Origin: Rubripirellula lacrimiformis
GTDB taxonomy: Bacteria; Planctomycetota; Planctomycetia; Pirellulales; Pirellulaceae
Direction: 5' to 3'
NCBI RefSeq assembly: GCF_007741535.1
Contig: NZ_CP036525.1
Location: forward strand, 1,674,001 to 1,738,000
DNA: 64,000 nt
In this document: positions 49,659 through 61,595 of the stretch, piece after piece
Position numbering within the stretch: position 1 is the stretch's first letter
How the letters are laid out: the number at the start of each line of letters is the position of its first letter
Program-made: the position numbers and the translations under genes
Notes under the pieces: generated by a model
Seen by the model: only the letters and a program-made list of their open reading frames with translations
What the model was told of the DNA's origin: nothing
The model's database searches: none

Positions 49659-49817
49659 GGAAATGTTTTGTGCTGCGGCTGATCGCGGTCGATGTTAGCG
49701 CCGCCAACCTTTCGGCGGCGTGTCGCCGAGAAGGTGACTGCAGCGGCATTGTTATCTGGTTTGTCCTTGGCGTGAAGCATGCAGTGGCATCGGGCGGGCA
49801 TCCCGTCGTTTCCGCCG

Positions 49818-50497
49818 GTAGCGCAAGTCGCCAAGACTTTCGGTGATTTTGGGGGGGCGGCAGGGCCGAAAGTCTTGGCGACATTCGCTACGGATGGGTG
49901 TCCAACGGGTTCTCCCGTAGCGCAAGTCGCCAAGACTTTCGGTGATTTTGGGGGGGCGTGGCAGGGCCGAAGGTCTTGGCGACATTCGCTACGGATGGGT
50001 GTCCGACGGGGCTTCCGGTAGCGCAAGTCGCCAAGACTTTCGGTGATTTTCCGGGGGGCGTGGCAGGGCCGAAAGTCTTGGCGACATTCGCTACGGATGG
50101 GTGTCCGACGGGTTCTCCCGTAGCGCAAGTCGCCAAGACTTTCGGTGATTTTCCGGGATGCGTGGCAGGGCCGAAGGTCTTGGCGATATTCGCTACGGAT
50201 GGGTGTCCGACGGGTTCTCCCGTAGCGCAAGTCGCCAAGACTTTCGGTGATTTCCGGGGGGCGTGGCAGGGCCGAAAGTCTTGGCGACATTCGCTACGGA
50301 TGAGTGTCCGACGGGGCTTCCGTAGCGCAAGTCGCCAAGACTTTCGGTGATTTCCGGGGGGCGTGGCAGGGCCGAAGGTCTTGGCGACATTCGCTACGGG
50401 TGGGTGTCCGACGGGTCTTCCGGTAGCGCAAGTCGCCAAGACTTTCGGTGATTTCCGGGGGCGTGGCAGGGCCGAAAGTCTTGGCGACATTCGCTAC
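49818..50497. repeat. REP-like array A: seven palindromic units of about 101 bp
   Basis: Units start with GTAGCGCAAGTCGCCAAG at 49818, 49917, 50018, 50120, 50222, 50322 and 50423. Each has a left arm (GTAGCGCAAGTCGCCAAGAC then TTTCGG), a G-rich loop, and a complementary right arm (CCGAAAGTCTTGGCGACATT then CGCTAC), so each can fold into one long hairpin of about 26 bp. A linker ending ACGGGTTCTCCC joins units. The first GTAG and last CTAC match the foot of REP elements. The array ends 22 bp from the stop of the coiled-coil gene. Frames open across it on both strands are by-products of the repeat. Confidence 0.93.
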
Positions 50498-50519
50498 GGA
50501 TGGTAGGGCCGCCGGGTGC

Positions 50520-51614
50520 CTAACGTTTCACGCCGGGTTCGATGTTGTTCTGGATGTTGGTCCGAGCCGCTTCGATCGCTTGCGCGACTCGCGACGATTC
50601 GCTTTCGATGTGCGTTCGCATTCTCGCAATCTCGGCTTCCAGTTTCTGAATCTGCTTCAGGTTCGCTTGGTTGTCTTCTTGCAGTGCCTTTTCCCGATAG
50701 AACAAATCGGTCACATCCATCGGTTCGGAAGCATTGACGTTGAATTGTTGCTTGAATTCATCTACCGCTGCGCGACGGATCGACTGGACTTCTTGTTCGG
50801 CCAGCGCACGATGTTCAGCTGCTTGCTGATGCAATGATTCCAGCTCTGCAGGATCTACTTTTGCCAAGCCAAGATTTTTCAGCATCGCATCCAACGCTTC
50901 GATGTTTGCATCCAACATTTGCTTTCGATGGGACGCATCCAATTCAGCCAACTCCAGATCTTGTTCGCGTCGGATCCGTTTGAGTTCCTTTTCTTTTTCA
51001 AACGCGGCCACTTCTATATCGTCGTCGAGTTGTTTTTGCTGGCGTGCGGCAGCGATTCGACTCTCTTCGATTTCGGTGCGTAGGCGATCCACATCTTCGG
51101 CAGCGGAGTTCAGGTCCGCCAATTTGCCAATTTCTTCGATCAGGGCGTCGCGCTGCTGAGTCAGTTCCTCCAGTTCGGCCTGCAACTCATCGCGTCGCGC
51201 TTCGTGCTCGGCTTGCATCATCTGCAACTTGACATTGTGTTCTCGCGTCGCGCGGTCCAATTGCACGCTTAATTTTTCTTGCGACTCAGAGACTTGCCCG
51301 ATCACTTTGGCATACTGCTGGCGTCGTTCGTCGGCGAACTTATTTGCTTTGGCCCATTCCGCCTTCTCACGCTCGATCTCCAGTTCAAACTCTTTCATCC
51401 GTTCCAGATGCAGTTCTCGCTGGCGGCAATCCTCTGCTTCGGCTTCTTTCAGTTGCAATTCGTATTGCAGTTCCTGCAACTGCACTTCTCCGGGCGAGAT
51501 CGGGCCGCCTTCTCGCGCTGTCAATTGCCGCATCAGCTCGACGCAGTAATCCTTCGCCTCTTGCGCTTTCAGCCCCTGAACCTCGCTCTCCGAATACGTC
51601 AAATTATTGGCCAT
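50520..51614 (-). CDS. Long coiled-coil protein, unknown function
   Basis: A 364-residue protein with no signal peptide or membrane helix. From about residue 45 to the end it is rich in Glu, Gln, Lys, Arg, Ala and Leu with heptad character (LQELQYELQLKEAEAEDCRQ, RDELQAELEELTQQRDALIE, FEKEKELKRIRREQDLELAE). It is a cytoplasmic coiled coil. A short break with Pro around YREKALQEDN precedes the last helix. No domain name can be given. It stands between REP arrays A and B, which may once have been inserted at both ends of it. Confidence 0.85.
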   Translation of the reverse strand: MANNLTYSESEVQGLKAQEAKDYCVELMRQLTAREGGPISPGEVQLQELQYELQLKEAEAEDCRQRELHLERMKEFELEIEREKAEWAKANKFADERRQQYAKVIGQVSESQEKLSVQLDRATREHNVKLQMMQAEHEARRDELQAELEELTQQRDALIEEIGKLADLNSAAEDVDRLRTEIEESRIAAARQQKQLDDDIEVAAFEKEKELKRIRREQDLELAELDASHRKQMLDANIEALDAMLKNLGLAKVDPAELESLHQQAAEHRALAEQEVQSIRRAAVDEFKQQFNVNASEPMDVTDLFYREKALQEDNQANLKQIQKLEAEIARMRTHIESESSRVAQAIEAARTNIQNNIEPGVKR

Positions 51615-51750
51615 CGTTTTTTTAGCTCAAAGTTGCAATGTGGAATCAATGCCCTACTGGTCGAGACTGAATCTTACTTGCAGGGAGCATCGAGTCCAGC
51701 AGCAGAACCAGATCACTCAGCAAATCCGGTAATGCATTGCATCGAAAGTT

Positions 51751-51938
51751 AGCAGGGCCGAAGGTCTTGGCGACATTCGCTACGGATGAGTGTCCGACGG
51801 GTTCTCCCGGTAGCGCAAGTCGCCAAGACTTTCGGTGATTTTCCGGGGGCGTGGCGGGGCCGAAAGTCTTGGCGACATTCGCTACGGGTGGGTGTCCGGA
51901 TGCGTGGCGGGGCGGAAGCCCCTTGCGAGATTTGCTAC
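51751..51938. repeat. REP-like array B, ending inside the RAYT stop codon
   Basis: A right half-unit (CCGAAGGTCTTGGCGACATT...), one complete unit from 51812, and a degenerate end (GGGGCGGAAGCCCCTTGCGA then GATTTGCTAC). The final GCTAC supplies the CTA that is the TAG stop of the RAYT gene on the minus strand. Confidence 0.9.
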
Positions 51939-52525
51939 GACCGATTGGCGTATTTGGGATCGGGAAAGCGGTGGCAGTTGGTTCGCTTTAAGAACGAAAG
52001 CGTCCGCCACACTCGATTCCAGCTATCGGCTTGAAACAACCGTAACTGCGGATACCCAGGGAGCAGGCAATTTGTGTAAGGGTACTTAGCAAATTGGTCG
52101 ACTCCTACGAGCTTCTTCCTCTCGGGGTTCCTCGCGATGTATTCGGCGACCGCCTCAATGGCGCCCAGCTCCAATTCATCGTCCTTCAAAACATGGTCGT
52201 AGGCTTGCGTCTGCAGTTGGTAACCGATCCGCCGGAAGCAGTCGTTCAGGTCCGAACGCAAGTGTTTCGCCGCCAGGATCTGATCAGAGGATTCCGCCAG
52301 TCCGCACCAGAGCAGATGCATGTGATCTGGCATCAAGCAGAAAATCGGACACGCGATCTGGTCGCGAAATGCCACGTGCGTCAGCAGTTCGCGGAACTTG
52401 TAAAGGAACCGGGCATCCAGCCAACCTTCTTTCCGGTCCTGGATTGCGAATGTCCAATGCACCCAGGCATGCCCCAAATAGCATTCCGCAGGCAGCCTTT
52501 TCAGTCGTTGCTTACGATTGACCAT
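51935..52525 (-). CDS. REP-associated tyrosine transposase (RAYT, Y1/HUH family)
   Basis: A 196-residue protein from the ATG at 52525; the frame runs back to 52603 through repeat sequence, which I exclude. The HUH motif is LMPDHMHLLWCG (His68, His70). The catalytic tyrosine is best placed at Tyr129 in AVAEYIARNPERKKLVG, the RAYT/IS200-like Y...NP.R..LV pattern. The C-terminal part (YTNCLLPGYPQLRLFQADSW) is longer than in IS200 enzymes, as usual for RAYTs. These single-copy enzymes nick DNA at REP sequences with a GTAG foot. A degenerate repeat begins 10 bp upstream of its start and another makes its stop, so gene and repeats form one unit. The gene is intact. Confidence 0.9.
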   Translation of the reverse strand: MVNRKQRLKRLPAECYLGHAWVHWTFAIQDRKEGWLDARFLYKFRELLTHVAFRDQIACPIFCLMPDHMHLLWCGLAESSDQILAAKHLRSDLNDCFRRIGYQLQTQAYDHVLKDDELELGAIEAVAEYIARNPERKKLVGVDQFAKYPYTNCLLPGYPQLRLFQADSWNRVWRTLSFLKRTNCHRFPDPKYANRS

Positions 52526-52534
52526 CCCAACATC

Positions 52535-53130
52535 GTAACGAATGTCGCCAAGGCGTTCGGTGATTTTTTGGGGGCGCGGCGGGGCCGAAAGTCTTGGCGA
52601 CATTCGCTACGGTGGGTGTCGGAGCTGTCTTTCGGTAGCGCAAGTCGCCAAGACTTTCGGTGATTTTCCGGGGACGCGGCGGGGCCGAAGGTCTTGGCGA
52701 CATTCGCTACGGGTGGGTGTCCGACGGGTTCTCCCGGTAGCGCAAGTCGCCAAGACTTTCGGTGATTTTCCGGGGGCGCGGCAGGGCCGAAAGTCTTGGC
52801 GACATTCGCTACGGTGGGTGTCCGGGGACGCGGCGGGGCCGAAAGTCTTGGCGACATTCGCTACGGTGGGTGTCCGGGGGCGTGGCGGGGCCGAAGGTCT
52901 TGGCGACATTCGCTACGGTGGGGTGTCCGGGGGCGTGGCGGGGCCGAAGGTCTTGGCGACATTCGCTACGGTGGGGTGTCCGGGGGCGTGGCAGGGCCGA
53001 AGGTCTTGGCGACATTCGCTACGGTGGGTGTCCGGGGGCGTGGCGGGGCCGAAAGTCTTGGCGACTTGCGCTACGGATGGGTGTCCGGGCGCGTAGCGGG
53101 GCCACGGGGCTTGGCGACTTGCGCTACGGA
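52535..53130. repeat. REP-like array C: full units followed by tandem right half-units
   Basis: It begins with a degenerate unit (GTAACGAATGTCGCCAAGGC), then complete units from 52635 and 52737. From about 52790 the left arm disappears and only the right half (CCGAAAGTCTTGGCGACATT, CGCTAC, GGTGGGTGTCC) repeats about six times at a step of roughly 52 bp, with variants AAAGTC/AAGGTC. The last copies change ACATTCGC to ACTTGCGC. The change from full to half units is abrupt. Confidence 0.9.
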
Positions 53131-53174
53131 TGGGGGGAGTGGCGATCGGCGGTGGGACGCGCCGATCGGTGGGG

Positions 53175-53480
53175 TCACGCTGGGAAGCGGAGTTTGGCTA
53201 GCGGAGGATTGCTATGAAGAATTTCGCCCGAGTCCGAAACCTTCAAGTAATAGGACGCGCCGATATGGACTCGCGTTGTGAAGGCTGAATCCCCCGTGGG
53301 GTCCAGCTTTTCCCAAATGTTGACTCGATAGTTGCCATTGTGATGCTGGCAGACCTCGACATTATGCAGACGGGGTGGCTTGCCGATTTTGTCCAGAATC
53401 TGCGCTTTGATTTTCTCCGTATGGTCGGATTCCGCTACGGGGTCATCTTTCTGTGGGGCTGCTTGATCGACTTTTGCCAT
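53175..53480 (-). CDS. Small conserved-looking protein, unknown function
   Basis: A 101-residue protein from MAKVDQAAPQKDDPVAESDH; the frame runs back to 53537 without support. It has a charged N-terminal half and a compact beta-rich part (NVEVCQHHNGNYRVNIWEKL, RVHIGASYYLKVSDSGEIL). It has no membrane helix. It reads toward the coiled-coil gene but is separated from it by the RAYT locus. Not recognised. Confidence 0.6.
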   Translation of the reverse strand: MAKVDQAAPQKDDPVAESDHTEKIKAQILDKIGKPPRLHNVEVCQHHNGNYRVNIWEKLDPTGDSAFTTRVHIGASYYLKVSDSGEILHSNPPLAKLRFPA

Positions 53481-61427: not shown

Positions 61428-61595
61428 GTAGCGAAAGTCGCCAAGACTTTCGGTGATCCTTTCAACGGCAATGGTGAGCCGCTGGCCGTGAGGCCACTGT
61501 CATTGGGGGGGATTCCCGGCCGCTCACGCGATCACGGCTCACTCAATCGAAAAACATTTCGTAGCGAAAGTCGCCAAGACTTTCGGTGATCCTTT
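61428..61595. repeat. REP-like array D: two left half-units 133 bp apart
   Basis: Two near-identical copies of GTAGCGAAAGTCGCCAAGAC then TTTCGGTGATCCTTTC start at 61428 and 61561. Each contains the small hairpin CGAAAGTC-GCCAA-GACTTTCG. They are the left arm of the units in arrays A to C, without the right arm. The second copy abuts the kinase stop codon. Confidence 0.9.

Follow-up and report, generated by a model that had tools for sequence, protein, structure and literature searches.

The window considered here is a stretch of 64,000 nucleotides of the planctomycete Rubripirellula lacrimiformis (RefSeq contig NZ_CP036525.1, positions 1,674,001 to 1,738,000), and it carries a gene for a REP-associated tyrosine transposase (RAYT) set within three arrays of repetitive extragenic palindromic (REP) sequences. 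The RAYT gene lies on the minus strand (window positions 51935..52525) and encodes a protein of 196 aa with the motif DHMH, a tyrosine at residue 129 and the motif YIARNPER. Array A (49818..50497, plus strand) contains seven tandem REPINs, i.e., pairs of inverted REPs, at a spacing of 99-102 bp; array B (51758..51938, plus strand) contains a right-hand single REP (51758-51783), one REPIN (51810-51885) and a degenerate REP at its end; and array C (52535..53127, plus strand) contains three REPINs at 52535 (its first arm degenerate), 52635 and 52737, followed by half-units that are single REPs on the minus strand with a period of 52-53 bp. An earlier note, made from the letters of the window, had described a Y1/HUH protein of RAYT type (HMH motif, Tyr129) within three arrays of GTAG...CTAC palindromes, and we found these features exactly where it had placed them. 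The interlocking of gene and repeats that it had reported is also present: a degenerate REP (GTAACG...) begins at 52535, separated by nine bases from the RAYT ATG at 52525, and the CTAC at 51935-51938, the end of array B's degenerate REP, supplies the TAG stop codon of the gene. The gene is therefore flanked by inverted GTAG REPs, the degenerate REPs at 52535 and 51938, whose feet face the gene, with good REPINs directly outside both. Besides tandem units of about 101 bp, as in the earlier description, array C also holds the half-units.

The earlier note had further read the repeat as a hairpin with arms of 26 bp. The 77-nt unit, as single-stranded DNA, does form one long hairpin (-26.1 kcal/mol, z -6.9, equaled by 0 of 200 shuffles), but the 26-nt arm, GTAGCGCAAGTCGCCAAGACTTTCGG, also folds alone, with a GTAG foot, an 8-bp stem with one mismatch and a GCCAA loop. 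Each arm is thus a complete REP, and the GTAG...CTAC palindrome, in which two inverted REPs pair into a single hairpin, is a REPIN. The stem mismatch in this genome is C-T in one arm and T-T in the other, which does not speak against function, because E. coli RayT is described as requiring an unpaired bulge (PMC8266576). In 20 REPs of the near clade, chosen as palindromes and so leaning toward structure, 98.8% of stem cells were paired and 18 cells had changed on both sides, values that were reached by 0 of 500 shuffles for both; the two-sided changes fell at four of the eight stem pairs. The count of pair types alone was a weaker compensation signal, being reached by 42 of 500 shuffles.

The note had proposed that the arm be counted across the genome (8.54 Mb, one contig), and the count places the repeat well beyond the RAYT locus. 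With up to three mismatches, GTAGCGCAAGTCGCCAAGACTTTCGG occurs 272 times forward and 253 times in reverse, 525 in all, and since the reversed-pattern control at the same threshold gave 0 + 0, this abundance is not chance. Perfect copies number 242, of which 235 positions were listed, and 236 perfect copies fall within the stretches analyzed; near-perfect REPs number 319. At up to five mismatches, 426 REPs lie in 41 stretches, the window among them. The RAYT gene has a single full-length copy in the same genome, so that a lone, non-multiplying gene stands beside 242 perfect REPs, as is characteristic of a RAYT.

In an alignment of 28 RAYT sequences, residues D67, H68, H70 and Y129 are invariant, which predicts an active HUH motif with a single catalytic tyrosine in a Y1 core. 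A profile of these sequences searched against PDB (E up to 1) had a sole match, the E. coli TnpArep structure 4er8 (E 0.0058), and all 28 matched NF047646 (REP-associated tyrosine transposase) at E up to 0.001; PF01797 gave a weak match below its cut-off, and the window protein alone had no match in Pfam or PDB at E up to 0.001. In the phylogeny that the note had suggested, the window protein grouped with other REP-flanked planctomycete RAYTs and with E. coli RayT (support 94/87), on a tree that included no true IS200/IS605 TnpA and in which the E. coli branch is very long (3.86). Eight other Y1 proteins of R. lacrimiformis were separate from the RAYT group in the same tree. A search of named genomes with the window protein returned a partial match of 74% in a Planctomycetota metagenome-assembled contig and a weak partial match in Brevibacillus. 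A structure predicted from the single sequence had a mean pLDDT of 36.7 and was not used. As a separate observation, the genome has ten more Y1_Tnp matches with E up to 1 (L085-L095); four of them are above the cut-off, and several sit in long frames of up to 377 aa.

Relatives of the RAYT (E 1e-10) were present in 57 of the 241 genomes of the family, R. lacrimiformis included. The closest, at 69% identity, are in other genera, and two genomes of the same genus have RAYTs of 53-54% identity; this patchy presence resembles horizontal transfer or loss. At 27 of the 29 relatives' loci examined a script identified at least two GTAG stem-loops, the exceptions being L033 (none) and L032 (one). The REPs of near relatives (61-69% protein identity) mostly begin with GTAGCG[AG]AA, continue with stem bases that vary and a loop of 5 nt, and end in the complement, and farther relatives have GTAG(T/C)GGATCTT GCYA AAGATCC and other REPs, in which the layout is kept and the letters differ; the REP type tracks the RAYT clade. 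A RAYT was found in 10 of the 13 genomes with at least five arm copies (one mismatch allowed) vs. 47 of the other 228 (p 4e-5, or 1.5e-4 without R. lacrimiformis). The REPs are patchy as well, as 20 of the 21 other genomes of the genus carry at most one copy (one mismatch). In its exact C-variant the arm seems nearly confined to R. lacrimiformis, as the places listed for other genomes include a single perfect copy, in G160. Among 30 RAYT loci, that of the window included, 9 have at least three evenly spaced REPs, and tandem growth is therefore not limited to this genome.

The scale of the arrays, the head-to-tail arrays of single REPs and the polarity described below are the unusual features of R. 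lacrimiformis. Of the 236 perfect REPs, 207 belong to groups in which three or more share a strand within 400 bp, and the largest arrays have up to 23 lead REPs. The modal periods of 22 strand-wise arrays at 20 places take 17 different values between 42 and 269 bp, and linker identity is 0.93 within vs. 0.56 between arrays; five pairs of arrays have a unit in common (849k, 851k, and 6638k; 3406k and 3408k; 7871k and 7883k). Head-to-tail arrays of single REPs include those at 2026k, 2030k, 2769k, 3286k, 3416k, 4192k, and 5663k. In several arrays the linker is made up of the first part of the 3′ flank and, after it, the last part of the 5′ flank. When 30 strand-wise arrays were scored, the left flank matched the array's own linker above the array flanks of other stretches at seven (2030k, 3286k, 3292k, 3547k, 4192k, 4303k, and narrowly 6921k); six more were set aside, as their left flank is itself array. 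Where the origin of the linker is readable, array growth appears best explained by local tandem duplication of an already inserted REP or REPIN with its surroundings, and the amplification mode of its own that the earlier note had suggested is not borne out.

Several arrays have further individual features. Long arrays with units of 154 and 161 bp at L055 (3547.8-3549.8 kb) and L059 (4303.8-4307.4 kb) hold the same REP on both strands, making the arrays near-symmetrical, and the latter (4303k) has 22 units and is near the likely terminus. L069 (7871.7-7873.6 kb) and L070 (7883.7 kb), 12 kb apart, have a common 87-bp unit with 23 and 3 lead REPs, respectively; the 5′ flank matches the linker end (9 nt exact) only at the small array L070, as if the large L069 had been moved to its present place. 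An IS3-family element (NF033516, 195 bits, cut-off 160) lies inside the REPIN arrays at L045 (~849.94-851.65 kb) and L053 (~3406.77-3408.49 kb), the two copies being 98% identical; REPs are known as landing sites of insertion sequences (IS; PMC1525189).

Most REP sites are oriented with respect to replication. Up to 4.2 Mb, 15 of 18 stretches have a positive GC skew, and of the 23 stretches farther along 21 have a negative one, which by skew places the origin and terminus near 0 and ~4.25 Mb. With clusters merged at 5 kb and three mixed sites dropped, the REP A strand is plus at 15 and minus at 2 clusters in the left half and plus at 3 and minus at 15 in the right half (Fisher 3e-5). At 31 of 36 hand-sorted orientable loci the lead REP is on the lagging-strand template (p = 1.3e-5), which puts the GTAG strand of REP A on that template, and p remained between 2e-6 and 0.0023 when up to seven related or neighboring loci were dropped and the terminus was shifted from 3.9 to 4.4 Mb. 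The polarity is seen in arrays only (9:1 vs. 0:7, p 4e-4) and in small sites only (7:1 vs. 3:8, p 0.02). That arrays mostly point with the replication fork is a hint that REPs spread on single-stranded DNA during replication. The flank preceding GTAG is also biased: at 47 end-of-cluster sites there is a C at -1 in 39, a pyrimidine at -3 in 42 and a C at -6 in 29, and a G at just 11 of the 188 places from -5 to -2, the 47 sites not all being independent and the -1 C perhaps being part of the REPIN itself.

The arms found throughout the genome bear out the earlier note's proposal of a planctomycete REPtron, and we consider it probable that the locus is one, with a single-copy RAYT that mobilizes a REP/REPIN population and with local duplication that grows the arrays. 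By analogy to E. coli TnpAREP, the RAYT would recognize the GTAG foot and the imperfect 8-bp hairpin on single-stranded DNA, and would cut and rejoin via Tyr129. REPINs would then insert mainly 3′ of a G-poor, pyrimidine-rich stretch in the lagging-strand template, giving rise to the polarity of the two replichores. Once placed, a REP or REPIN may undergo tandem duplication together with part of its flank, through unequal recombination or because of slippage or a template switch at the hairpin, and each locus would grow its own satellite with its own period. It is feasible, although we hold this wider idea at somewhat less than even chances, that the spread of REPINs and the growth of the arrays are alike linked to the lagging-strand template, in which case the polarity at some thirty loci would reflect a domesticated HUH transposase acting at the fork and the hairpins would subsequently seed satellite DNA with a site-specific period.

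Several observations weigh against parts of this interpretation. G149 has 39 REP copies (one mismatch), and G063 and G158 have five each, without a RAYT match at E 1e-10, G149 being 89% complete. The window protein scores 38 bits (E 1e-9) against the curated NF047646 cut-off of 80, a shortfall that is the threshold of one model and no biological feature, and that we hold not to be decisive. Five loci oppose the polarity (2831k, 4192k, 5000k, 7169k, and 8424k) and three sites are mixed. The left flank had no match above the others in 17 of the 30 strand-wise arrays, array A included, so that the evidence for duplication does not extend to all loci. No switch of polarity was seen in three relatives with few copies (G152 with 5, G162 with 8, and G207 with 14 plus 11 of another REP): all eight copies of a related REP in G162 are on one strand along the contig, and the 14 copies in G207 are distributed 4:3 in each half (p 1.0), with a sampled GC skew that has no clear origin. 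As far as tested, then, the polarity is not general, the relatives' numbers being small and their REPs different.

An ordinary IS200/IS605 element with its own ends would have the Y1/HUH domain seen here and could account for the weak PF01797 match under the cut-off. Such a mobile unit would be expected in several copies, whereas this gene has one full-length copy in 8.54 Mb with REPs on both sides, its relatives are REP-flanked too, and no other Y1 transposase structure was among the profile matches at E up to 1; we therefore reject membership in this group and regard that origin as highly improbable. It is also conceivable that the arrays are kept by selection as host structures, such as transcription ends or gyrase or nucleoid sites, the RAYT being incidental. 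By simple open reading frame (ORF) calls, which also underlie the gene directions given below, 20 of 39 non-mixed groups are between converging genes, and the upstream gene runs in the same direction at 30 of 36 loci. Selection of this kind seems to us unlikely, as the RAYT gene is surrounded by the same REP type, REPs and RAYTs are associated across genomes, and nearly all other genomes of the genus have one copy at most.

The same bias in gene direction could mean that transcription rather than replication sets the polarity, as both biases are present (30/36 and 31/36). However, of the 466 genes called in the REP stretches, 232 are co-oriented with replication, a background of 0.50 by these crude calls, and so gene direction does not explain the polarity. 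The replication effect further holds within each gene class, at 25 of 30 loci with an upstream gene in the same direction and at 6 of 6 with an opposite one, although two of these six (849k and 6638k) share a unit; transcription is in our judgment a doubtful cause. With regard to array growth, the RAYT itself might build the tandem arrays if it connected a cut in the flank with the REP's GTAG end (rolling or re-ligation), and units would then restart exactly at GTAG. This is the pattern at 5663k, where the 27-nt linker is covered over its full length by the 3′ side and the repeat restarts at GTAG, and the 17 of 30 arrays with no visible 5′-flank copy would agree with it. At 2030k, 3286k, 3547k, 4192k, and 4303k, on the other hand, the last part of the linker repeats the 5′ flank and the junction thus lies in the flank, for which reason we reject a transposase-made junction for those arrays; we think it improbable that the RAYT builds the arrays, and favor local duplication of inserted REPs and REPINs.

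Much of the unit itself has been published, i.e., planctomycete GTAG REPs, REPtrons and tandem REPIN clusters with flanking DNA, and the interest here is the scale and the polarity. In particular, the long hairpin unit in tandem, which the earlier note had taken to be of a new kind, is a REPIN as known from Pseudomonas, and REPIN clusters in tandem with flanking DNA are in the literature (PMC3116915; PMC3733652). The system is like the REPIN/RAYT system described for Pseudomonas fluorescens SBW25 (Bertels and Rainey, 2011, PMC3116915) in its inverted REP doublets, the RAYT beside REPIN clusters, the tandem clusters with flanking sequence, and the finding that some arrays run forward on one chromosome side and in reverse on the opposite side; excision events are reported there as well. 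According to that account, however, SBW25 REPINs are mostly single, with the largest ordered REPIN cluster having four and the largest REP arrays twelve, unlike the array-bound REPs and common single-REP head-to-tail arrays described above. The locus also resembles the GTAG REP families of Di Nocera et al. (2013, PMC3733652), several of which are given for Rhodopirellula baltica, in the GTAG foot, the REPtrons, the REPs overlapping gene ends and the clusters in which units recur together with flanking DNA that varies in length; it differs from them, as they are described, in that at least seven arrays are formed here. The HUH motif with a single tyrosine, the GTAG foot and the mismatched stem are shared with E. 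coli TnpAREP (RayT) and its REP/BIME (bacterial interspersed mosaic element) substrates (PMC8266576; structure 4er8), which differ in protein length (165 vs. 196 aa), stem and loop; we infer cleavage by the window protein from this likeness. The HuH and YI..NP motifs are those of TnpA-Y1 class 2 (REP) of Quentin et al. (2018, PMC6006769), and YIARNP differs from class 3, which is given a CnGA foot and Y....Q and is said to occur mainly in Planctomycetes, Acidobacteria and Proteobacteria. According to the same paper, Y1 enzymes have the lagging strand as a source of single-stranded DNA; Gomez et al. (2014) are cited there regarding replication and transposable element orientation. A search by title or start of abstract, with most subscription papers outside its scope, returned no paper on replichore polarity of dispersed REPs, and the main text of the RepRanger paper (PMC12306157) contains no word starting Planctomycet.

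How REPs move is unsettled, and the abstract of PMC8266576 states that their dissemination is poorly understood. R. lacrimiformis, with its approximately 36 orientable sites, its matching RAYT and a 5′ flank poor in G, allows direct predictions of the insertion strand, of the target preference and of how arrays grow when the enzyme is present or absent. The arrays also represent satellite-like DNA on a large scale in a planctomycete; 29 satellites are listed for R. baltica (PMC6749651).

Other features of the window include a gene at 50520-51614 (minus strand), between array A and the RAYT gene, for a protein of 364 aa that looks coiled-coil-like by eye and has no Pfam or NCBIfam match. We considered it as a partner of the RAYT and rejected this, as tblastn (1e-3) found no match to it at the 31 other loci searched (L014-L044). 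Rfam gave nothing above the gathering score in 49700-53200. Outside the span marked in the earlier note there is a further REP site at 61428..61586 (plus strand) with two copies, 133 bp apart (61428 and 61561), of the perfectly paired REP GTAGCGAAAGTCGCCAAGACTTTCGG, duplicated along with the short flanks catttc before and tgatcctttc after. Several REP arrays also contain a second palindromic repeat, GTGAGCCG ... TGAGCGGCCGGG, interspersed with the REPs; it occurs in the window at 61474-61542 and elsewhere at L052, L060, L064, and L067. GTGAGCCG alone is not much above chance (61 copies vs. 45 expected), whereas TGAGCGGCCGGG has 27 copies in 857 kb, compared to ~0.3 expected from base composition.

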